Origin: Terriglobus sp. TAA 43
GTDB taxonomy: Bacteria; Acidobacteriota; Terriglobia; Terriglobales; Acidobacteriaceae
Assembly: GCF_000800015.1 (NCBI RefSeq)
Contig: NZ_JUGR01000001.1
Span: 62,001-126,000, forward strand
Reading direction: 5' to 3'
DNA length: 64,000 nucleotides
Of the stretch, positions 15,503 to 44,463 are shown piece after piece. A model generated the notes under the pieces. The model did no database searches and was not told where the DNA came from. It was given only the letters and a program-made list of their open reading frames with translations. The position numbers were made by a program, and so were the translations under genes. The stretch's first letter is position 1; each line of letters opens with the position of its first letter.

Positions 15503-16189
15503 CTAACCATGAGGCTTGAGCCAGTCCTCGAAGTGTCCTTCCAACGCCACCCTCACCAGTTGGCCCCGAGTCCTCACACCGGTCTTATGAAACAGCTCCT
15601 GAATGCTTGCTTTCACCGCGGTTTCCGACACACCAACCACTGTTCCAATCTCTTTGTTGCTCAGGCCATCCAGGATATGGTGCAGGATCTGTCTCTGACG
15701 CGCCGTGATCGAAGGATGACTGCCCTCGGCATTTCTGTTTGTCGGCGTCGAACCTTGCCGTAGCGCGCTCTCGTCCCACCACTGATTCCCCTGGGCCACA
15801 GCGCGTATGGCATGTAACAACTGTCGAGGTTCACCATGCTTCAGCACCACGCCGGAGACCCCAGCATCCAGCGCCCGGTGCAACTCGGCCACTTCCATAC
15901 CCGCAGTGAGCAGCAGAAACCGCGGCACGTGTTGAAGACGCGCAAGTGTTTCCAGCAGTATTGGACCCACTTCGTTTTCAGGATCGTAGTCCAGCAGCAC
16001 CAGGTCTACATTCTGTGTCGTCAGGGCCCTGCGAGCTTCGGACAAGTTCGCAAACTGACCGGCAACAGCGATGTCCGGCTCATACGCCAACAACTGCATC
16101 ACGTTCTCGCGAAAGAGCGGGCGGCCGTCCACAAGCAGCAGTTGTGTGGGTCTTTTCGCCACTTCAGTCCATCCCTTGGTGCTTTTCAT
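15503..16189 (-). CDS. NarL/LuxR-type response regulator
   Basis: A 228-residue regulator: receiver domain (about 14-130) and LuxR HTH (about 160-222, with ITARQRQILHHILDGLSNKEIG and AVKASIQELF). The phosphoacceptor D67 (LLDYD) and the conserved Lys117 (VVLKH) are present, but the second acidic residue of the pocket is replaced by Gly (VDG, 20-22). Phosphorylation is therefore plausible but not certain. No sensor kinase gene is adjacent. It is divergent from the M28 peptidase, with a long intergenic region between. Confidence 0.88.
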   Translation of the reverse strand: MKSTKGWTEVAKRPTQLLLVDGRPLFRENVMQLLAYEPDIAVAGQFANLSEARRALTTQNVDLVLLDYDPENEVGPILLETLARLQHVPRFLLLTAGMEVAELHRALDAGVSGVVLKHGEPRQLLHAIRAVAQGNQWWDESALRQGSTPTNRNAEGSHPSITARQRQILHHILDGLSNKEIGTVVGVSETAVKASIQELFHKTGVRTRGQLVRVALEGHFEDWLKPHG

Positions 16190-16426
16190 TCACCGTGAGG
16201 CAAGGCTCAACCGCCTAATGCCGAACGTCTGAAGTGGCAGAGTAAAGCAAATCCGTTCCGAAGCACCACATTCTTCGCGAATTGATTGAAATGCTGTCAA
16301 GTCCTTGTTCGTGTAACTCCATTCCCATCAACAATCTGCGACTGCCGGTAATTTCCCCGAAACTTGCTACACTGGAAATGCACCCGAAAATTAAGCTGAT
16401 TTAACTTTTGCGCAACGCAAGCTAAG
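16190..16426. other. Divergent intergenic region before composite repeat
   Basis: About 240 bases between a response-regulator gene and the composite repeat. I see no gene, RNA or confident promoter here. A TTGCGCAACGCAAG dyad lies near 16408-16421 and a TACACT hexamer near 16368. Confidence 0.4.
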
Positions 16427-16548
16427 TCTTTTATTAAGACGATTTTGCCTCTAAGTCCTTGCGGTAGACGATTTTGCGGTATACCCCGCAGTTATCTCCC
16501 GTAGAATGACGATTTTGCAAAAACAGGGGGGAGGGGGGTACCCCTCCC
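16427..16548 (+). repeat. Composite dispersed repeat, copy A (three GACGATTTT motifs plus G-rich palindrome)
   Basis: Three copies of GACGATTTTG start at 16438, 16467 and 16508 (spacings 29 and 41). The first two sit in tandem 29-bp units of the form CTAAGTC, eight variable bases, AGACGATTTTGC. The element ends in a G-rich palindrome (16526-16548) centred on GGTACC. The reverse complement of 41153-41275 has the same motifs, order and spacing. The G-rich end lies about 25 bases before the M28 start codon. Confidence 0.85.
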
Positions 16549-16572: not shown

Positions 16573-18813
16573 ATGCGCCGACTCGCCGCTGCCTCGCTCG
16601 CCCTTTTGCTTCCTATCTCTGCTGTCACGCAGGAAGCTCCCAAGTCCATCCTCGGCTTCACACCGCAGAGCGCGCAGACAGAGCGACAGCTTGAGTCCAA
16701 GTTCCTCACGCTGCCGGATGCGAAGCGCATCTCCGCGAACATGCACAAGCTCGCGGGACATCCGCACAACGTTGGATCGGCAGCGCAGCGCGCCAATGCG
16801 GAATGGCTCGTCGAGCAATATAAGTCCTGGGGTTGGGACGCCAAGATCGAGTCCTTCGACGTGCTCTATCCCACGCCAAAGGTGCGCGTGCTGGAACTCC
16901 TCGGCAGCAAGCCTTATAAGGCCAAGCTGGAAGAGCCGCCCGTTCCCGAAGATCCGTACACGCAGGACAAGAGCCCCGCAATGCCGCCGTACAACATCTA
17001 CGCTGTCGACGGTGACGTAACTGCGCCGCTCGTCTACGTGAACTACGGCATGAAGGCCGACTACGAAGAGCTGGAGCGCAACGGCGTCTCCGTGAAGGGC
17101 GCCATCGTCATCTCCCGTTACGGCGGCGGCTGGCGCGGCCTCAAGCCCAAGCTCGCGTATGAGCACGGCGCTGTTGGCTGCATCATCTACTCCGATCCCG
17201 CCGATGACGGCTTCGGCCCCGGCGATGTCATCCCGACGGGTCCCATGCGTCCCGAATGGGGCGTACAGCGCGGCTCCGTCGCAGACACCACTCTCTACGC
17301 AGGTGATCCTCTTACTCCCGGTGAAGCCTCTGTCCCCGGCGTGAAGCGCCTGGCCATCAAGGACAGCAAGGTCATCATGCAGATCCCCACGATTCCTATC
17401 TCGTGGGGCGATGCCAAGCCACTGCTGGCGCAACTGGACGGCCGCACAGTGCCTGCGACATGGCGCGGCGCCTTGCCCTTCACCTACAAGTTCGGTCCCA
17501 GCAAGGACAAGGTCCACCTCAAGATCCAGTCGGACTGGGGAACCAAGCCTGTGCTCGACGTCATCGCCACACTCAAGGGGAGTGAAGAGCCAGACACATG
17601 GATCGTGCGCGGCAACCACTACGACGGCTGGGTCAACGGTGCAGACGATCCCATCAGCGGTGAGTCCGCCCTCATGGAAGAGGCTCACGCACTGGGCGAC
17701 CTGCACAAGCAGGGCTGGAGCCCCAAGCGCACCCTCGTCTACGCCGCATGGGACGGTGAAGAGCCAGGCCTCCTCGGTTCCACCGAATGGGCAGAGCGTC
17801 ACGCCGATGAGCTGACCAAACACGGCGCGGTGTACATCAACTCCGACGAGAACGGCCGTGGCTACTTCGGCGGCAGCGGCTCCCAGAGCTTCGAGCTCAT
17901 GGTGAACGACGTCACCCGCGAGATGACCGACCCTGAGACCGGCAAGAGCGTATGGGACCGCCAGAAAGCCGCAACGCAGACGGGCCGCGGTCGTCGCTCG
18001 GGTGGTGACGGCGCTGGCCGCAAGACCATCCCGTTCGGTCCCGCAGGTTCCGGTTCGGACTATGCAGGGTTCATCGATCATCTCGGTGTAGCCTCCATCA
18101 ACATCGGCTACGGTGGTGAAGACCGCGGTGGCACCTACCACTCCGCCTACGACACACCGTGGCATTGGGACCAGTTCGCCGACAAGGATCAGGTCTACGG
18201 CAAGCTGTTCGCCCAGACTGCTGGAACCATCGTCCTGCGCATCGCCAATGCGGATGTCATGCCATACAACTTCACGGAGCTGGCGCTCACGGTGAAGGAC
18301 TATGCAGACAACCTCAAGGCCGAGGTGAAGACGATGCAGGCAGAGTCCACGCAGCGTGACCGCGCCCTGAAGTCCGGCGCATTCACCCTGGCGAACGACC
18401 CAAAGAACTCCCTCGCACCGCCACCAGCACTGCCCATGCCTCCCACGTACGACTGGACTACGCTGGACGCAGCCATCACCAAGCTGTCCACTGCATCCAC
18501 GCGCTACGAGGGACTTACGGCGAAGGCTGTGACGCTGTCGCCAGCCCAACGCAAGACCCTGAACGATGGCCTGGCAGTGAGTGAGCGCAAGCTACTCTCC
18601 GACGCAGGTCTGCCGGGCCGCCCATGGGTGAAGCACCTCATCTACGCCCCCGGCACCTACACCGGCTACGGCGCCAGCACCCTGCCCGGGGTACGTGAGG
18701 CCATAGAAGCAGGCCGCTTCGACGAAGCGAAACAGCAGTTGGATGTTCTGGTAAAGAGTCTGAACGATGAAGCAGATTTCATCGATTCACTCTCTACCCA
18801 GATCGGTCAGTAG
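16573..18813 (+). CDS. Secreted M28-family peptidase (glutamate carboxypeptidase II-like)
   Basis: A 746-residue zinc peptidase with a Sec signal (LAAASLALLLPISAVTQ), a PA domain inserted at about residues 140-270, the M28 catalytic core, and a C-terminal transferrin-receptor-like dimerisation domain. Catalytic-core blocks: RGNHYDGW (first Zn ligand His), DDPISGESALMEEA, WDGEEPGLLGSTEW (the general base and Zn-ligand Glu pair), INSDENGRGYF, and SAYDTPWHW (His ligand). The length and order match glutamate carboxypeptidase II/NAALADase homologues. The ATG at 16573 follows a composite repeat, and GGGAG is 14 bases upstream. Confidence 0.94.
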   Translation: MRRLAAASLALLLPISAVTQEAPKSILGFTPQSAQTERQLESKFLTLPDAKRISANMHKLAGHPHNVGSAAQRANAEWLVEQYKSWGWDAKIESFDVLYPTPKVRVLELLGSKPYKAKLEEPPVPEDPYTQDKSPAMPPYNIYAVDGDVTAPLVYVNYGMKADYEELERNGVSVKGAIVISRYGGGWRGLKPKLAYEHGAVGCIIYSDPADDGFGPGDVIPTGPMRPEWGVQRGSVADTTLYAGDPLTPGEASVPGVKRLAIKDSKVIMQIPTIPISWGDAKPLLAQLDGRTVPATWRGALPFTYKFGPSKDKVHLKIQSDWGTKPVLDVIATLKGSEEPDTWIVRGNHYDGWVNGADDPISGESALMEEAHALGDLHKQGWSPKRTLVYAAWDGEEPGLLGSTEWAERHADELTKHGAVYINSDENGRGYFGGSGSQSFELMVNDVTREMTDPETGKSVWDRQKAATQTGRGRRSGGDGAGRKTIPFGPAGSGSDYAGFIDHLGVASINIGYGGEDRGGTYHSAYDTPWHWDQFADKDQVYGKLFAQTAGTIVLRIANADVMPYNFTELALTVKDYADNLKAEVKTMQAESTQRDRALKSGAFTLANDPKNSLAPPPALPMPPTYDWTTLDAAITKLSTASTRYEGLTAKAVTLSPAQRKTLNDGLAVSERKLLSDAGLPGRPWVKHLIYAPGTYTGYGASTLPGVREAIEAGRFDEAKQQLDVLVKSLNDEADFIDSLSTQIGQ

Positions 18814-35002: not shown

Positions 35003-36763
35003 ATGGAACTGCGTACGCTGAACGATGTTTTCCGGAACGCCACCTCCCGTGGCAGTGAGCGCGCCATTCTTACACCCGTTGGTGAACGGTGGGAGGCCAT
35101 CTCCTGCGACGCGCTCTATTGGCGTACGCGACGCCTGGCTGCATGGATGCAGTCGCAGGGCATTGCGAAGGGTGATCGAGTTGGGCTCATCGCTGAAAAC
35201 CGTTGGGAATGGGCAGTGACAGACTTTGCGTCGCTCGCCATTGGCGCTGTTGACGTTCCCATGTTTCCAACGCTGACGCCGGACCAGACGCGCGCGCAAC
35301 TCGCAGACAGCGGCGCGAAGATTGTCTTCGTTTCTACGCAGGATGTTGCGAAGAAAGTTCTTGGGACAGGATTTGAGGGAACGATTGTCGCGATGGACAG
35401 TGGCGAAATCGGCCTTCCTTTTTCGGACCTCGTTGCCGGTGAGGATTCTTCCGGACGTGATGCAGCATTCGATCAGGCTGTGGCATCGGTGCAGCCTGAA
35501 GATACTGCAACCATCATCTACACCTCTGGCACCACGGGCGACGCCAAAGGCGTGGTGCTGTCGCATGGCAACGTTGCATCCAATCTGTCGATGACGACAG
35601 AGCTGTTTCGCTTCGGAGCGGATGACCTGATGGTGTCGTTCCTGCCGTTGTCGCACGTGACGGCGCGCCACATTGACTATCTGTTTTACGCGGAGAATGT
35701 CACGCTCGCGTATGTCAGCCGTCCGGAGCGTGTTCTTCCTGCGATGGCTGTAGTCAAGCCGACGATTTTCGTCGCGGTACCGCGTGTCTACGAACGTGTG
35801 CGTCAGTCCGCAGAGGGTAAGGCGTTGAAGGCTGGTGGTCTGAAAGCGAAGATCTTCCAATGGGCCATCAAGACCGGTGCAAAGCATCGGGATGAAGTGG
35901 CGCAGATGCTGGGCGAGCCTTCTTCGCTGTCATGGAAGATCGCGAACAAGCTGGTGTACAGCAAGCTGCGTGAAGCTTTTGGCGGACGGGTGAAGGTATT
36001 CGTAGCTGGTGGTGCCCCACTTGGCATCGATTTGGCGCAGTGGTTCGCTTCGGCGGGTATCTCGATTCTCGAAGGCTACGGGCTTACGGAAACCTCTCCT
36101 GTCATTGCCGTAAACCTGCCCGGTCGCAACAAACTCGGAACCATCGGACCGAAGCTGAAGAACATCGACGTGCGGTTTGCAGAGGATGGGGAGTTGGAAG
36201 TGCGCGGTCCCAGCATCTTTCAGGGTTATTGGCAGAAATCTGAACAGACGTCCGAAGTGATGGACGGCGAGTGGTTCAAGACCGGCGATATCGGGAAGAT
36301 CGACTCCGAAGGTTTCCTCTCCATCACTGATCGGAAGAAGGAACTGATCAAGACGGTTGGCGGTAAATTCATTGCACCGCAGCCCATTGAGAACAAGCTC
36401 AAGGTTTCTTCTCTGATTGGTTTTGTGGCATTGCAGGGTGATAGACGAAAGTACGTCGCCGCTATTGTCTCGCCGAATTTCCCCGTGCTTGAAGAGTGGG
36501 CGAAGGAGCAGGGAATTGCGGCATCAGACCGCAAAGCCTTGGTTCATGATGAGAGGGTGATTGAGCGGTATCAGAAAGAATTTGATCGCGTGAATCAAGA
36601 AGCCTCGCCGTGGGAAAAGGTAAAGCGCTTCCGTTTGGTGCCCGATGAATGGACGGTGGATGGAGGCGAAGTCACGCCCAGTCTTAAGTTAAAGCGGCGT
36701 GTGGTGGCCACTAACTACGCGAAGGAGATTGAGGCAATGTATAGCGGTGCGGACGCCGAATGA
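35003..36763 (+). CDS. fadD: AMP-forming long-chain acyl-CoA synthetase
   Basis: A 586-residue ANL-superfamily ligase activating fatty acids to acyl-CoA. The AMP-binding P-loop IIYTSGTTGDAKG lies near residue 170, then YGLTETSP, the FKTGDIG motif and the hinge lysine/aspartate region ITDRKKELIKT. It resembles the eukaryote-like (FAA1) long-chain branch, with a long C-terminus. The ATG at 35003 has GGGAG at 34995. The short intergenic segment before it carries only the gltB terminator. Chain-length specificity is not visible. Confidence 0.9.
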   Translation: MELRTLNDVFRNATSRGSERAILTPVGERWEAISCDALYWRTRRLAAWMQSQGIAKGDRVGLIAENRWEWAVTDFASLAIGAVDVPMFPTLTPDQTRAQLADSGAKIVFVSTQDVAKKVLGTGFEGTIVAMDSGEIGLPFSDLVAGEDSSGRDAAFDQAVASVQPEDTATIIYTSGTTGDAKGVVLSHGNVASNLSMTTELFRFGADDLMVSFLPLSHVTARHIDYLFYAENVTLAYVSRPERVLPAMAVVKPTIFVAVPRVYERVRQSAEGKALKAGGLKAKIFQWAIKTGAKHRDEVAQMLGEPSSLSWKIANKLVYSKLREAFGGRVKVFVAGGAPLGIDLAQWFASAGISILEGYGLTETSPVIAVNLPGRNKLGTIGPKLKNIDVRFAEDGELEVRGPSIFQGYWQKSEQTSEVMDGEWFKTGDIGKIDSEGFLSITDRKKELIKTVGGKFIAPQPIENKLKVSSLIGFVALQGDRRKYVAAIVSPNFPVLEEWAKEQGIAASDRKALVHDERVIERYQKEFDRVNQEASPWEKVKRFRLVPDEWTVDGGEVTPSLKLKRRVVATNYAKEIEAMYSGADAE

Positions 36764-39252: not shown

Positions 39253-39747
39253 ATGATGGAACAGAACGATTTGCAGGAACTTCGCGAGCTTGTCTCCTTC
39301 TTGAAGGACAACGGCATCGCTGAATTTGATCTTCACCGCGGCGAGCAACATGTCCGCATCAAGTTTGCGCAGCCCGCTGCGCCCATTGCATTTGATCCGA
39401 CGCATTTTGCGCACCTCGCGGCGGCTCCGCATGTGGCCCCGGCACCGGTCGCTGCCGCTCCGCTGGCTGCTCCTGCGCCTGCAGCGGCGGCTGCCCCGGC
39501 AGAGGTGCTGCACGAGGTGAAGTCGCCCATCGTGGGTACTTTCTATGAGAGCTCCGCTCCTGGTTCTGCGCCGTTCGTGAAGGTGGGTGACACCATCTCT
39601 GTTGGCCAGGTGGTTTGCATCGTGGAAGCCATGAAGCTGATGAACGAGATCGAGAGCGACGTCGCCGGTGAAGTGGTGAAGCTGCTGACCGAGAATGGCA
39701 AGCCTGTCGAGTATGGCCAGCCGCTGTTCGCGGTACGGCCGCGGTAA
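39253..39747 (+). CDS. accB: Biotin carboxyl carrier protein of acetyl-CoA carboxylase
   Basis: A 164-residue BCCP. Biotin is attached at Lys128 in EAMKLMNE (125-132), in the normal C-terminal position. A long Ala/Pro linker (about 55-85) separates it from the N-terminal domain. It carries CO2 between AccC and the carboxyltransferase in fatty-acid synthesis. It is followed four bases later by accC. Confidence 0.96.
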
Positions 39748-39751
39748 GGAC

Positions 39752-41149
39752 ATGGGCATGTTCAAGAAGGTCCTGATCGCGAACCGTGGCGAGATTGCAC
39801 TGCGGGTTATCTCGGCTTGCCGGGAGCTTGGCATCCGTACTGTGGCCGTATACTCCGAGGCCGACCGTAACAGCCTCCACGTCCGCTTTGCGGATGAGGC
39901 TATCTGCATTGGCCCTCCGCGCTCCGCGGAGAGCTATCTCAACGTTCCGGCGGTTATCTCTGCCGCAGAGATCGCGGATGTGGACGCGATTCATCCCGGT
40001 TACGGACTGCTGAGCGAGAACGCCAACTTCGCCGAGGTGTGCCGCGCGAGCAACATCAAGTTCATCGGACCGCGCCCTGAAGTGACGCGGATGATGGGTG
40101 AGAAGTCCACCGCCCGGCAGACTATGAAGGCGGCTAATGTGCCTATCCTGCCGGGGTCCGATGGTGTTATCGGGTCGGTGGAAGAGGCGCTGCAGTGGGC
40201 TGCGGATGTGCGTTATCCGGTGATCCTGAAGGCTGTGGCTGGCGGCGGCGGACGCGGTATGCGTATCGTCCGTTCGGCAGAGGAGCTTCCCGGTTTGTAC
40301 AACCAGGCATCGACCGAGGCGCTGAACGCCTTCGGCAATGGCGACCTGTACATGGAGAAGTTCATCGAGCGTCCTCGTCACATTGAGTTCCAGGTGTTGG
40401 CTGACGAGCATGGCAACGTGATGTCGCTGGGCGAGCGTGAATGCTCTATTCAGCGTCGTCACCAGAAGCTGATCGAGGAAGCTCCGTCGCTGCAGATTAC
40501 GCCGGAGATTCGTACGCGTCTTGGCGGCGTGATTGAGCGTTCGCTGCGTGAGATCGGTTACTGGAACGCTGGCACGATCGAGTTCCTGATGGATGAAGAT
40601 GGCGAGATCTACTTCATCGAGATGAACACGCGTATCCAGGTGGAGCATCCGGTGACGGAGTTGATTACGGGCATCGACCTGGTGAAGGCGCAGTTGCGCA
40701 TTGCCGCTGGTGAGAAGCTGCCGGACATCGTTCCGGTTCGTCCGTCGATCAACGGTCATGCGATCGAGTGCCGCATCAACGCGGAGCATCCGGAGAAGTT
40801 CACGCCTTCCGCAGGCAAGATCACGGCATGGAATGTGCCGGGCGGAAATGGTGTTCGTGTAGATACGAACCAGTACCAGGAAGGCGTTGTTCCGCCTTAC
40901 TACGACAGCATGATCGCCAAGGTCATCTGCCATGGCAAGGACCGCGAAGAGGCAATGAGCAAGATGCAGCGCGCTCTGAGCCAGTTTGTGGTGGAAGGTA
41001 TTCACACGACGATTCCGCTACAGCAGAAGATCTTCTCCGATCCTGACTTCCGCAAGGGTGACTTCGATACGAAGTTCATGGAACGCTTCTTTGAAAAGGA
41101 AGCTGCGCGCAAGAAGGTGGAAGCCGAGAACGAACCAACAGGGGCATAA
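39752..41149 (+). CDS. accC: Biotin carboxylase subunit of acetyl-CoA carboxylase
   Basis: A 465-residue ATP-grasp carboxylase that charges biotin on AccB. ATG 39752 (or 39758, [12 protein letters not shown]) starts the subunit. Blocks: [20 protein letters not shown], the ATP-binding [24 protein letters not shown], and [15 protein letters not shown]. The arginine and glutamate active-site residues of this last block are present. It forms an operon with accB. The stop codon is immediately followed by the G-rich end of repeat copy B. Confidence 0.97.
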
Positions 41150-41152
41150 GCA

Positions 41153-41275
41153 GGGAGGGTACCCCCTCCCCCCGGTTTTTCTAAAATCGTCTTTCTATTG
41201 GGTTTACGGTTTTGGTGGCTGTAAAATCGTCTGCCCATTGGAGTTAGAGGCAAAATCGTCTTTCTAAACGAGTTA
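41153..41275 (-). repeat. Composite dispersed repeat, copy B (inverted relative to copy A)
   Basis: Reading on the minus strand, GACGATTTT motifs occur at 41260, 41231 and 41191 (spacings 29 and 40). The first two are in CTAACTC-N8-AGACGATTTT units. The G-rich palindrome (41153-41173) centres on GGTACC and begins three bases after the accC stop. The order and spacing equal copy A at 16427-16548. Confidence 0.85.
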
Positions 41276-41301
41276 GGGCCACGCGGAAGCGTGGCCCTTT
41301 T
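41276..41301 (+). terminator. Terminator downstream of accC and repeat copy B
   Basis: A 9-bp perfect stem, GGGCCACGC (41276-41284) and GCGTGGCCC (41289-41297), with loop GGAA and then TTTT. Confidence 0.85.
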
Positions 41302-41444
41302 GTCTCTGGTTCTATTTTAGCGGTTTGAAGGAAATATCATGCCAACTCTATTTCCTGTGGTTTGTTGGGTTTAAGTAGCTTGAGGGCTTGACAGAATCAA
41401 TCTCGTTTTCAGCCAGGCTCGGATGCGGGCTTTTCATTTTTGTC

Positions 41445-42869
41445 TCATTTTGCAGGCACCGGCCGCATCTGTGGTTTCCTCCAGGTCCCATTCATAACCG
41501 TATCGCCGGGAAGATAGACACGGAAAACGCCATAGAACGGCCCGTCGGGTGCGGGAAGCCAGTTCGCCTGTCTTACCGGGCCGGGGTTCTCGCGCGAGAC
41601 ATAGAGTGTCAACGATCCATCAGGGCCGAACTTATACGACTTCAACATGGTCGAGTTGAGCAGATAGCGCTTCAGAGGATTTGCCACTAGCAACTGCGTC
41701 TTGCCGTCGTACATGGTGAGAGACCAGAACGCTTTGGTGGGCGGCAGATCACCCTTCGAAAAGTGAAGCTCGTAGTTCGACTTTGATGCATCAAGCGGCT
41801 GGTGGTTCGCGTCGACGAAGTAGCCGAAGTAGAGCGCGTCTTGTTTTGAGTTGCCGTAAAGCCCCAGTTTCGCGCCCGCATAGCGGTACAGATAGTTGTC
41901 CTTGAGGAAGTCGCGAGTTCCGAACATCTCTCCGCTGGAGATCTGATCGGTATTGATCTTCTTCATGACTGTGCCCAGATCAGCGTCCGAGTCCTTAACT
42001 CCGTCTTTAATCGCTTGCTGGATCTCCGGTGAAAACCTGCTCATATCGAACGTCTGCCCCGGACCGATGTTCAACTTGGCAAACCGCGCAAGCAACGCAC
42101 TCTCACTGGGATTCGGCGGACAGAACTGGAAGAGAAAGTTGACGTAAGGAAACACATCCACGCCCGCAGGCAGGTCGCCAATCTTCGGCCAGCTTACCGG
42201 TGGCGCAGTTGCAGGTGCGGGTTGTTTCAAAAATGCGCTGAGTGTTTGTGCCTGATATCCCGCCTGAACCTTGTTTACCTTTGGCAAATCGGCTGCGTTG
42301 AACAGCTGGGTACGAAAGATGATGTAGGCGAACTGCGTTTCTGAGCGAACGACCGCTTTCACTCCGGCGGGCGTTGCTCCGTTCCATCCGGGACCGGCAA
42401 CCAGAAAGGTTCCGCCATCGTTCCCGTAAGCGCGTGTGCCAAGGTAGGCAAAGTTGTATGTGTACAGATCCACCATTTGCCCGGTGTAGTAACGATTCGG
42501 CTCAATCTTCGGCACCGTCACCACCAGCGGCTCCGCGCGCAAATCCATCCACAGATACGAGTACGGCGTATCAGAGTTCGGCGTCACCACGAACTTATCT
42601 TCGGGCGTGGCCACTGACTTCGAGCTATGAAGGGTGTTGAATGGCCCTTGATAGTCATGGTTGGTAGTGTCGATCGCCTGCTTGTACATCGTCTGGTAGT
42701 TCGCAGCCATCGGAAAGCCGTAGATGTAGGCTTCCTTTGCAATGGTCCGTGCATCAGCGGCGGAGATGCCGTTCTGTTCCGTGATCTTCGCCTGATTGCA
42801 TCCCGTCGCAAAAAGCAAACCTGCTGCCAGAACAACTCCTGACATCCTGCAAAGCACAGTTGCCATCAT
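41445..42869 (-). CDS. DUF1254-domain lipoprotein (copy 2)
   Basis: A 474-residue exported lipoprotein. ATG 42869 has AAGGAG upstream and opens a signal ending in lipobox ATGC, near residue 22. The DUF1254 domain comes first (KEAYIYGFPMAANYQTM, VVTPNSDTPYSY, MVDLYTYNFAYLG), followed by DUF1214 (KAFWSLTMYDGKTQLL, YVSRENPGPVRQANWLPAP). It is a close paralogue of the gene at 42913-44334, in the same order. Family function is unknown; one strand of literature links members to cell-envelope integrity, but nothing here tells the role. Confidence 0.87.
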   Translation of the reverse strand: MMATVLCRMSGVVLAAGLLFATGCNQAKITEQNGISAADARTIAKEAYIYGFPMAANYQTMYKQAIDTTNHDYQGPFNTLHSSKSVATPEDKFVVTPNSDTPYSYLWMDLRAEPLVVTVPKIEPNRYYTGQMVDLYTYNFAYLGTRAYGNDGGTFLVAGPGWNGATPAGVKAVVRSETQFAYIIFRTQLFNAADLPKVNKVQAGYQAQTLSAFLKQPAPATAPPVSWPKIGDLPAGVDVFPYVNFLFQFCPPNPSESALLARFAKLNIGPGQTFDMSRFSPEIQQAIKDGVKDSDADLGTVMKKINTDQISSGEMFGTRDFLKDNYLYRYAGAKLGLYGNSKQDALYFGYFVDANHQPLDASKSNYELHFSKGDLPPTKAFWSLTMYDGKTQLLVANPLKRYLLNSTMLKSYKFGPDGSLTLYVSRENPGPVRQANWLPAPDGPFYGVFRVYLPGDTVMNGTWRKPQMRPVPAK

Positions 42870-42912
42870 CAGAGCTCCTTCGTTCGAACGGTTGCTGTGT
42901 TGTGTATGCCTG

Positions 42913-44334
42913 CTACTTCGCCCGCTCAACTATAGGAGATTTCCAGTCGCCGCTAAGCAGTTCCGGCTTGGGCCAGTAATAGCGAACCGCCATCATGAAT
43001 GGGCCTTTCGGCGCAGGAAGCCAGTTCGCCTGTTTCGCGCCTCCCGGAGAATCAGCCTGGATATACAGAGTGAGTCCGCCATCCGGATCGAGTTTCAGCT
43101 GGGGCAGCATCGGCGAGTTGATGAGGTAGCGATTGATCGGATTCTTCACCAGTAGCTGACTCGGAAGGTCATACATGGTCAACGACCAGAACGCATTTAC
43201 TGGCGGAAACTGTCCCTTGGCAAAGTGCAACGTGTACTTGCCCTTGCTGCCATCAAGCGGCTGACCATCCGCATCCTTATCCAGAATCGGATACAGAGCT
43301 TCATCGCGCGAGTTAGCGCCAATACCCATCTGCGTGCCAGTCGCGCGTGCAAGGAAGTTGTTCTTCAAATACTCACGCGACCCGAACAGTGTGTCTGTCT
43401 TGCCGCCAGTAGCCGCGCGGTTGGTATCAATCGCCTTTTGCCCATCGGCAATACCTGTCTTCATAGCCGCTTGAACCTCAGGCGAAAACGCAGACGCGTC
43501 AAAAGGCTTGCCCGGCACGATTCCAATCTTTGCAAAGCTCTGCCGCAACTCTGCCTCACTGGGGTGCGGTGGCATACAGAACTGCAAAAGGAATGCCATC
43601 TGATTGAAGAATGCGAGCGATGTCTGTTCCGCTGGCGAGATAGGTGTCGGCCAGTTGATGGGCGGTGCAGGAGGAGGTGGTGCCGTGTGAGCAAATTCGT
43701 GCAGCGGCTCAATCTTGTAGCCAGCCTGGATCTTCTTCACATTCGGCAGATCGGCAGGATTGAACAGCTGCGTGCGGCCCACCACGGACACAAACTCCGT
43801 CTCAGCGTTGAACGTCTTCGTGATGTTCTTCGGCACCTCGCCCTTCCATTCCGGGCCGGCAATCAGAAAGGTGCCTCCATCATTCCCAGTAGTGCGGCTG
43901 CCAATGTATGCAAAGTTGAAGGTGTACAAATCCATCAACTGGAAGACGAAGTAGCGATTCTTTTCCATCTTCGGGATGGTGATCACCATCGGCTCAGCCC
44001 GCAGATCAAGGCCGCTGAAGGAATAAGGCGTGTCAGAGTTGGGCGTGACAAACGCCGTGTCCGCAGGCGTGAAAACACGCGCAATATTCAGCACGGAGTT
44101 GAATGGTCCCTTGTACTGCGGATTGCTCTTATCCACTGAGAAGGCATACATCGTCTTGTACTGCGCAACCATGGGCACGCCGTACACATAGGCATCCTTC
44201 GCAATCGATTGCGCCTCTGCCGGAGCAACGCCACTCTCCGCCGGCTTCTTCGCGCTATCGCATCCCGCCGCAGTAAACAAGATCAAAGCGGACAATCCAG
44301 CCCACAATGCTCCACGCGCATGCCCTATCAGCAT
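42913..44334 (-). CDS. DUF1254-domain lipoprotein (copy 1)
   Basis: A 473-residue paralogue of the next downstream gene, with lipobox TAAGC after an N-terminal hydrophobic stretch. ATG 44334 (MLIGHARG) is preceded by AGAGG. It shows the same blocks: KDAYVYGVPMVAQYKTM, FVTPNSDTPYS, LMDLYTFNFAYIG, and the DUF1214-like NAFWSLTMYDLPSQLL with PGGAKQANWLPAP. The two copies have almost the same length and are separated by 43 bases, which points to tandem duplication and probably co-transcription. Confidence 0.87.
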   Translation of the reverse strand: MLIGHARGALWAGLSALILFTAAGCDSAKKPAESGVAPAEAQSIAKDAYVYGVPMVAQYKTMYAFSVDKSNPQYKGPFNSVLNIARVFTPADTAFVTPNSDTPYSFSGLDLRAEPMVITIPKMEKNRYFVFQLMDLYTFNFAYIGSRTTGNDGGTFLIAGPEWKGEVPKNITKTFNAETEFVSVVGRTQLFNPADLPNVKKIQAGYKIEPLHEFAHTAPPPPAPPINWPTPISPAEQTSLAFFNQMAFLLQFCMPPHPSEAELRQSFAKIGIVPGKPFDASAFSPEVQAAMKTGIADGQKAIDTNRAATGGKTDTLFGSREYLKNNFLARATGTQMGIGANSRDEALYPILDKDADGQPLDGSKGKYTLHFAKGQFPPVNAFWSLTMYDLPSQLLVKNPINRYLINSPMLPQLKLDPDGGLTLYIQADSPGGAKQANWLPAPKGPFMMAVRYYWPKPELLSGDWKSPIVERAK

Positions 44335-44463
44335 CAGTGACCTCTCTTGAGAGGCCAAAGATAGAACATTGCGAGGTAACTTCAACCTGTTGGTTCTGAC
44401 AGGGAGAGAGGATTGATCGAGAATCACGGAGATGCATTGATCGGTGAAAACGGGCCAATGTAC

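Follow-up and report, generated by a model that had tools for sequence, protein, structure and literature searches.

A dispersed intergenic element kept by selection in Terriglobus, with units that seem related to the boxA motif of rRNA transcription

Results and discussion

A repeat of 240 base pairs in 48 copies

The window analysed here, 64,000 nucleotides of the soil bacterium Terriglobus sp. TAA 43 (C1:62001-126000 of the 4.95 Mb host genome, labeled G000), contains two copies of an intergenic element that occurs in 48 good copies in the genome. Individual copies are kept by selection and linked to the gene on their right-hand side, and their relatives in other genera are enriched in boxA motifs and in -35 promoter signals on the sense strand. 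The motif of the element seems related to a motif of rRNA transcription, and the repeat family hints at an unrecognised control system.

The initial annotation described a dispersed composite element with conserved spacing, in two inverted copies, and this description stands. The paired motif GACGATTTTN{15,40}GACGATTTT has 75 matches in the genome versus 0 for the reversed control, and a sequence-only model built from 12 copies, R1, has 49: the 48 good copies and one weak partial match, which was dropped. These numbers exceed by far the handful of matches below which the annotation would have been abandoned, and the spacing is conserved. Since the single motif, with one mismatch allowed, is not enriched in the window (17 occurrences for 13.2 expected), it is the spacing that carries the signal. 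Three exact GACGATTTT motifs are found in 32 of the 48 copies.

The repeat is larger than first reported. Its full length is about 240 bp, from CTGTCAAG through GGTACC, and an alignment of 15 copies is conserved over this whole span; the positions first given for copy A, 16427-16548, cover its right half, while the copy runs from 16294 to 16544. From left to right, a copy contains CTGTCAAGCCC, an A-rich stretch, TTGGCA, 20 bp, TANAAT, a hairpin in some copies, three units, an A-rich link and GGGGGGAGGGGGGTACC. The wider unit consists of TAA, a boxA-like core and GATTTTGC, and successive units are spaced by 29 and then 40-41 bp. In copy A, the GACGATTTT motifs are at 16438, 16467 and 16508 on the + strand (spacing 29 + 41), and in copy B, at 41252-41260, 41223-41231 and 41183-41191 on the - strand (29 + 40). 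Both copies have the CTAASTC starts reported with these spacings, and the third unit also has a start, TAA in copy B and TAT in copy A. The variable centre announced within the units exists, with a length of nine bases rather than eight. The features of both copies and their neighbours, in positions of the window, are listed below; units, G-rich ends and the inverted repeat of copy A are delimited by their sequence.

16294..16544, + strand: copy A, whole element, a divergent form delimited by its sequence, from left edge CTGTCAAG to right edge GGTACCCC; matching copies lie at the same right-hand gene in genomes G003 and G008 (for G008, by the right flank)
16364..16375, + strand: copy A, TTGCTACACTGG, candidate -10 region with a putative promoter role; the form is also found in other genera, for example as TGCTATTCTGGAAATAG
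16408..16420, + strand: copy A, short inverted repeat TTGCG-CAA-CGCAA at the hairpin position; it is not the minimum-energy fold of the stretch that was folded
16423..16448, + strand: copy A, unit 1 (TAAGTC...GACGATTTTGC)
16452..16477, + strand: copy A, unit 2
16493..16518, + strand: copy A, unit 3
16526..16542, + strand: copy A, G-rich end GGGGGGAGGGGGGTACC, with its first G at 16526
16573..18813, + strand: M28 family peptidase of 746 aa, right of copy A; its start codon is 28 bp from the element
15503..16189, - strand: response regulator with a LuxR-type domain, left of copy A and divergent
41157..41394, - strand: copy B, whole element
41384..41394, - strand: copy B, left edge CTGTCAAGCCC, a string present at 31 places of the genome, of which 30 belong to the 48 copies
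41340..41345, - strand: copy B, TTGGCA, candidate -35, 20 bp from TAAAAT; 3.1% divergence between orthologues
41314..41319, - strand: copy B, TAAAAT, candidate -10, from its sequence and the comparison of orthologues
41276..41297, - strand: copy B, hairpin GGGCCACGC-TTCC-GCGTGGCCC, from its sequence and folding
41250..41275, - strand: copy B, unit 1
41221..41246, - strand: copy B, unit 2
41181..41206, - strand: copy B, unit 3
41158..41173, - strand: copy B, G-rich end GGGGGGAGGGGGTACC
39695..41149, + strand: biotin carboxylase (accC), right of copy B and facing it; the stop codon and the element are about 7 bp apart
41445..42929, - strand: DUF1254/DUF1214 protein, left of copy B

The element was also said to be closed by a G-rich palindrome around GGTACC. 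A G-rich GGTACC end is indeed present in copies A and B, and GGTACC terminates 38 of the 48 copies, but GGGGTACCCC ends only 23 of them: the wider palindrome is not constant. Variants of a second short repeat, GCCGAAGGCGTCGAGAACGGCACGAAGTG, stand directly outside the left edge of several host copies (C1:625160, 691019, 841376, 2959274, 1868126 and 1950774), and sometimes near the right edge.

Single copies are under purifying selection

In the sister genome G003, which is from another species, 43 of the host copies have a readable orthologue, and the divergence of these pairs can be computed column by column. Over the whole element, 14.1% of the aligned bases differ, while the three GACGATTTT blocks diverge by 3.1, 1.6 and 2.8%: we conclude that single copies are under purifying selection. 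TTGGCA diverges by 3.1%, CTGTCAAGCCC by 6.0%, the first two TAAC starts by 1.7 and 3.5%, and the third start by 6.5%. The G-rich end reaches 16%, a value that comes in part from the alignment of runs of G.

The hairpin behaves differently from the units: its arms diverge by 30 and 22%, and in many copies it is absent or replaced, with the units retained. The sequence ahead of unit 1 reaches a folding energy of -11 kcal/mol or lower in both orthologues of 25 pairs, in one only of 7, and in neither of 11; in several pairs, it is replaced by unrelated sequence in one genome. Two variant copies were seen in G003: L153 has four units, with the 29-bp step repeated, and L136 has its promoter half and its units about 285 bp apart, split at the place of the hairpin.

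Copies are linked to the right-hand gene

Genes were called with a simple hexamer scorer rather than a gene finder, and two sets of calls differ in their counts of orientations. By these simple calls the 48 copies are intergenic, with flanking genes in orientations +- (15), -+ (12), ++ (11) and -- (10), or 14, 10, 14 and 10 in the other set; in one set a called ORF overlaps 10 of the 48 copies, nine times with a short and low-scoring ORF and once with a right-hand gene that reaches 21 bp into the element. Right-hand genes face the element at 25 copies, 12 of them with a stop within 10 bp of it, and point away at 23. The 74 loci of other genera described below have 31 right-hand genes facing, 32 pointing away and 11 unclear, and those that bear a boxA have 13, 11 and 7: there is no preference.

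The right flank of 45 of the 48 copies is homologous to the right flank of an element of G003, and in 44 of them the homology comes to within 60 bp of the edge. On the left, 33 copies match at that same element, some of them by short matches, and 23 do so within 60 bp. Discordant flanks are all of one kind, 12 right-only and 0 left-only (sign test, p=0.0005), and 5 of these 12 have a left flank that matches another element of G003. Copies are thus linked to their right-hand gene, although part of the asymmetry may come from the often smaller gap on that side. Three copies have no right match in this synteny comparison, and one of them, C1:279596, had one in a less strict comparison on either strand.

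Of the 19 genomes of the genus searched, two with fragments only were left out; among the remaining 17, the element downstream of accC is present in G000, G003 and G008, and was not found within up to 1.2 kb after the gene in the other 14. Genomes of the same genus that do not carry this copy indicate that copies are gained or lost over time.

Promoter signals, hairpin and folding

In the 14 of 15 aligned copies that have both TTGGCA and TANAAT, the two are always 26 bp apart, start to start, and most other copies are alike. The spacer of this promoter-like pair, TTGGCA-N20-TANAAT, exceeds the textbook length by 3 bp, and the pair is conserved between orthologues; copy A retains the TTGCTACACTGGAAATG form, like sequences of other genera. 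In genome G067, a TTGACA-N16/17-TANNNT promoter precedes unit 1 by 52-74 nt in 4 of 5 copies. A strict scan for both hexamers over the 74 loci finds 8 on the sense strand and 2 on the antisense strand, for 2 in 290 flank windows and 2 in 370 shuffled sequences. The -35 string CTTGAC alone is enriched on the sense strand, with 20 of 74 loci, compared with 7 of 74 antisense and 8 of 290 flank windows (p=1.2e-9, sense versus flanks).

On the + strand, TTTT (41298-41301) comes right after the hairpin of copy B, which in this direction resembles an intrinsic terminator for accC, a role that its sequence suggests. As a general rule, a terminator hairpin tied to facing genes was rejected: the hairpin is present at 17 of 25 facing and 13 of 23 away genes (p=0.55).

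RNAalifold on 12 copies gives 18 pairs, of which one has changes on both sides. Seven pieces folded alone have z values from -4.0 to +0.9, five at -2 or lower and two near or above zero, and the stem before unit 1 explains part of the low values. Given these results, we do not claim a structured RNA for the units. At gathering scores, Rfam finds one tRNA only in the whole window; for copy B with its flanks (701 bases), a search at E<=5 has five matches, all below their gathering scores. A sigma-54 reading of TTGGCATGGTATTT was dropped: the -12 part of the sigma-54 consensus is not conserved. The string AACTCCAATAG resembles a mycobacterial NusA site, and was given no weight; a literature search pairing this string with NusA had no match.

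A boxA link in other genera

The relation to boxA was examined at 74 distinct loci in 30 genomes outside the host genus, chosen by model score and not by boxA content; earlier loci L098, L100-L102 and L104-L110, several of which are the same places, are outside this set. Within 150 nt upstream of unit 1, these 74 loci have 25 occurrences of the string [CT]TCTTTGA, for 0.39 expected, a value derived from 8 matches in 225,498 nt of flanks on both strands. Inside the elements there are 6 further occurrences, and the complementary strand of the stretches examined has 0. The agreement with boxA extends beyond the bases that were searched for: among the 25, a G comes before in 23, an A stands two positions after in 25, and a C is found in 18. 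Canonical boxA is thus present at 31 of 74 loci and in 12 of 30 genomes; genome G073 accounts for 21 of the loci and 14 of the 31 with boxA, and most of the 18 genomes in which it is absent have one to four loci. In four of the 25 (L199, L230-L232), the boxA is held by an extra upstream unit of the same make.

In the host genome, canonical boxA is found in 0 of the 48 copies. CTCTTT is present on the sense strand of 11 copies and on the antisense strand of 6, and in 4 of 96 flank windows. TAA[CG]TCCTTTG, the consensus of the units, is one or two bases away from GYTCTTTG, and the perfect core is reached by unit 2 in 8 of 68 cases, by unit 1 in 1 of 70 and by unit 3 in 1 of 52. Units 1 and 2 are best read as relatives of boxA; for unit 3, which fits boxA poorly (20 of 52 match 3 of 8 positions), this would be an extension of that reading. 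The gamma-proteobacterial consensus is GYTCTTTAANA in the sections of PMC5725501 cited here, and the host belongs to the Acidobacteriota. A 16S-based search for rRNA leaders in five relatives found one, in G138: by reading, the leaders of this genome and of the host have GATCTTTGACAAC, with an A in place of Y.

Taxonomic spread

Of 61 genomes searched for the exact pattern, 3 contain it, and all of these belong to the genus, which is represented by 19 genomes in the sample. Among 150 genomes of the family, R1 has matches in 19, and model R2, built from 14 diverse sequences, in 64, belonging to 41 of 79 genera (E<=0.001). The positive genomes have a common design, with three units, the 29 and 40-41 spacing, and the G-rich end. 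In a sample of the phylum, R2 matches 18 of 297 genomes, all 18 from the same family (E<=0.0001). Searches of more than 40 genomes use stricter filters, and weak copies are lost in them.

The boxA-type unit TAAGYTCTTTGANATCNNGATTTTG is found in 39 stretches among 84,980 species genomes, in records titled Acidobacteriaceae, Terriglobia, Acidobacteria, Acidobacteriales or, once, Bryobacterales. A profile made from A2 overlaps all 39, though the unit itself contributes to the score, and 30 of the 39 reach at least 25 bits; the Bryobacterales stretch scores 16.5 bits. A search of plasmid sequences for the element found none. In several genera (L186, L188, L190, L191, L193, L200 and L201), a CATGATTCCAA-like sequence takes the place of the third unit ahead of the G-rich end.

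A possible Nus-loading leader and its rivals

The initial annotation proposed two readings, an element of the REP or MITE type and a regulatory array bound by a protein recognising GACGATTTT. The second is compatible with the data, but the promoter and boxA signals of the relatives point rather, without proving it, to an RNA read by Nus factors. The reading we favour, with somewhat less than even confidence, is that a leader driven by the promoter of the element loads Nus factors onto the RNA polymerase travelling rightward. Each copy would be a self-contained, non-coding transcription module: RNA polymerase would initiate at the promoter of the left half and head for the G-rich end, and the nascent RNA would display a 5' hairpin, in part of the copies, followed by the three tandem units of TAA, boxA-like core and GATTTTGC at their fixed spacing. 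These units, together with the separate canonical boxA of many relatives, could recruit NusB/S10 and other Nus factors, and the polymerase would exit the element resistant to termination and read into the right-hand gene, giving an mRNA leader if the gene points away and an antisense RNA if it faces the element. Transcription in the host, binding of Nus factors to non-canonical units, antitermination and its purpose are all steps that we infer.

The absence of preference between facing and away genes, copies with boxA included, is not what a simple mRNA leader predicts, and what is most puzzling is that half of the right-hand genes lie antisense to the element. In the sections of PMC4807359 cited here, the main role of the Nus complex in E. 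coli rRNA is maturation and not stopping Rho, although in a reporter boxA protects a long non-coding leader from Rho; the former, with the poor fit of unit 3, lowers our confidence in a Nus-loading leader. At suhB, according to the parts of PMC5725501 used here, a boxA beside the Shine-Dalgarno sequence represses translation. From its sequence alone, the element could act as a Nus-loading leader, in RNA maturation, as a translational repressor or as a decoy. As a decoy, it would act in trans: the boxA-like units of a short RNA would draw off NusB/S10, or a different RNA-binding protein, and so tune rRNA synthesis, with genomic position mattering little. Many copies with three sites each and no preferred orientation would suit this, as would the G-rich end as a possible 3' end, and the sections of PMC4807359 cited here mention that a lambda Nut site on RNA made at a high level titrates Nus factors. 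A decoy needs neither rigid spacing nor linkage to the right-hand gene, and no terminator is recognised by eye at the G-rich end; we hold this explanation to be unlikely.

The near-invariant units with fixed spacing in the host genus, two spacings that differ by about one helical turn, and the little conserved pairing inside units would also fit an operator array, in which a transcription factor recognises the three GACGATTTT units as DNA and regulates the gene next to them. The units themselves fit RNA or DNA sites, but they lie downstream of the candidate promoter, the relatives have canonical boxA on the sense strand only, and half of the right-hand genes end, rather than begin, at the element, which makes such an operator array rather improbable. 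On the opposite strand, where a C-rich tract leads into three AAAATCGTC motifs and then a possible intrinsic terminator, the element could instead serve as a dispersed 3'-end cassette for facing genes, as the hairpin and TTTT after accC and the close stops of facing genes suggest. We consider this quite improbable as well: 23 of 48 right-hand genes point away, the hairpin is not tied to gene direction, and it is lost or replaced in many copies that keep their units. If the element were a REP/BIME or MITE, selfish or neutral and mobilised by a transposase acting in trans, this would explain the many copies and sharp edges, the 14 of 17 genomes in which nothing was found after accC, and the variation of the hairpin between orthologous copies. 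REP/BIME and MITE elements are likewise dispersed, intergenic and present in tens of copies, and of the REP or MITE reading it is only the repeated, intergenic character that fits. REP/BIME units are short palindromes that often come with a RAYT transposase, and MITEs have terminal inverted repeats and target-site duplications. The element has one hairpin, in part of its copies, its edges are not, by eye, inverted repeats of each other, it has promoter signals of its own, the right flank is kept at 45 of 48 copies, and the same geometry is found across genera. The contrast between conserved sites and the rest of the element holds copy by copy in orthologues, which is not what a repeat that was copied and then drifted would show. 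This last explanation is very improbable.

Relation to known systems

The element shares with rRNA-leader boxA and lambda nut sites (NusB/S10) the sense-strand GYTCTTTGANA of many family members, promoter signals upstream and, in part of the copies, a hairpin before a boxA-like unit, as in the order boxB-boxA of rrn leaders. It differs from them by its ordinary protein-gene neighbours, its three tandem boxA-like units, each with GATTTTGC, at fixed spacing, its G-rich end, its 48 copies in one genome, and the absence of canonical boxA from the host copies. CsrB-type sponge RNAs are also short RNAs with a repeated protein-binding motif, but the element has a constant number of motifs at constant spacing, and dozens of loci.

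Beyond rRNA and phages, boxA regulation is described at particular genes in the sections of PMC5725501 cited here, which count 407 putative boxA sites in 940 gamma-proteobacterial genomes. These non-ribosomal sites, at suhB and other genes, resemble the element in that boxA lies in the 5' region of a protein-coding gene and close to a G-rich tract of Shine-Dalgarno type; they are single sites, whereas the element is a repeat family with half of its neighbours antisense. Searches of the open-licence literature, by titles and beginnings of abstracts, for acidobacterial repeats and RNAs and for the text of the motif did not find the element in print.

If the Nus-loading reading is true, a family of intergenic boxA-like repeats, kept by selection and found in 64 of 150 genomes of the family, would be a new use of Nus factors, and one would have to ask why a cell would protect antisense transcripts from termination. 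We are more doubtful of the wider proposal, according to which such modules, with their own promoter and tandem boxA-derived sites, would be dispersed through the whole family at tens per genome, as a genome-wide antitermination or antisense network that re-uses the rRNA machinery.

Other observations

In four genera (G000 C1:3472294, L185, L193 and L243), the right-hand gene opens with the pattern C-H...NG..C.SP......C.FH. Compared with Pfam, three of these gene beginnings give two weak matches below the cut-off (zf-primase and DUF5763) and one case with no match. In the window, one exact GACGATTTT stands at 35761 with no partner nearby. At 41445-44427, on the - strand, two adjoining ORFs, the first of which is the DUF1254/DUF1214 protein, have common repeats 1462 bp apart, and are probably a tandem duplication.
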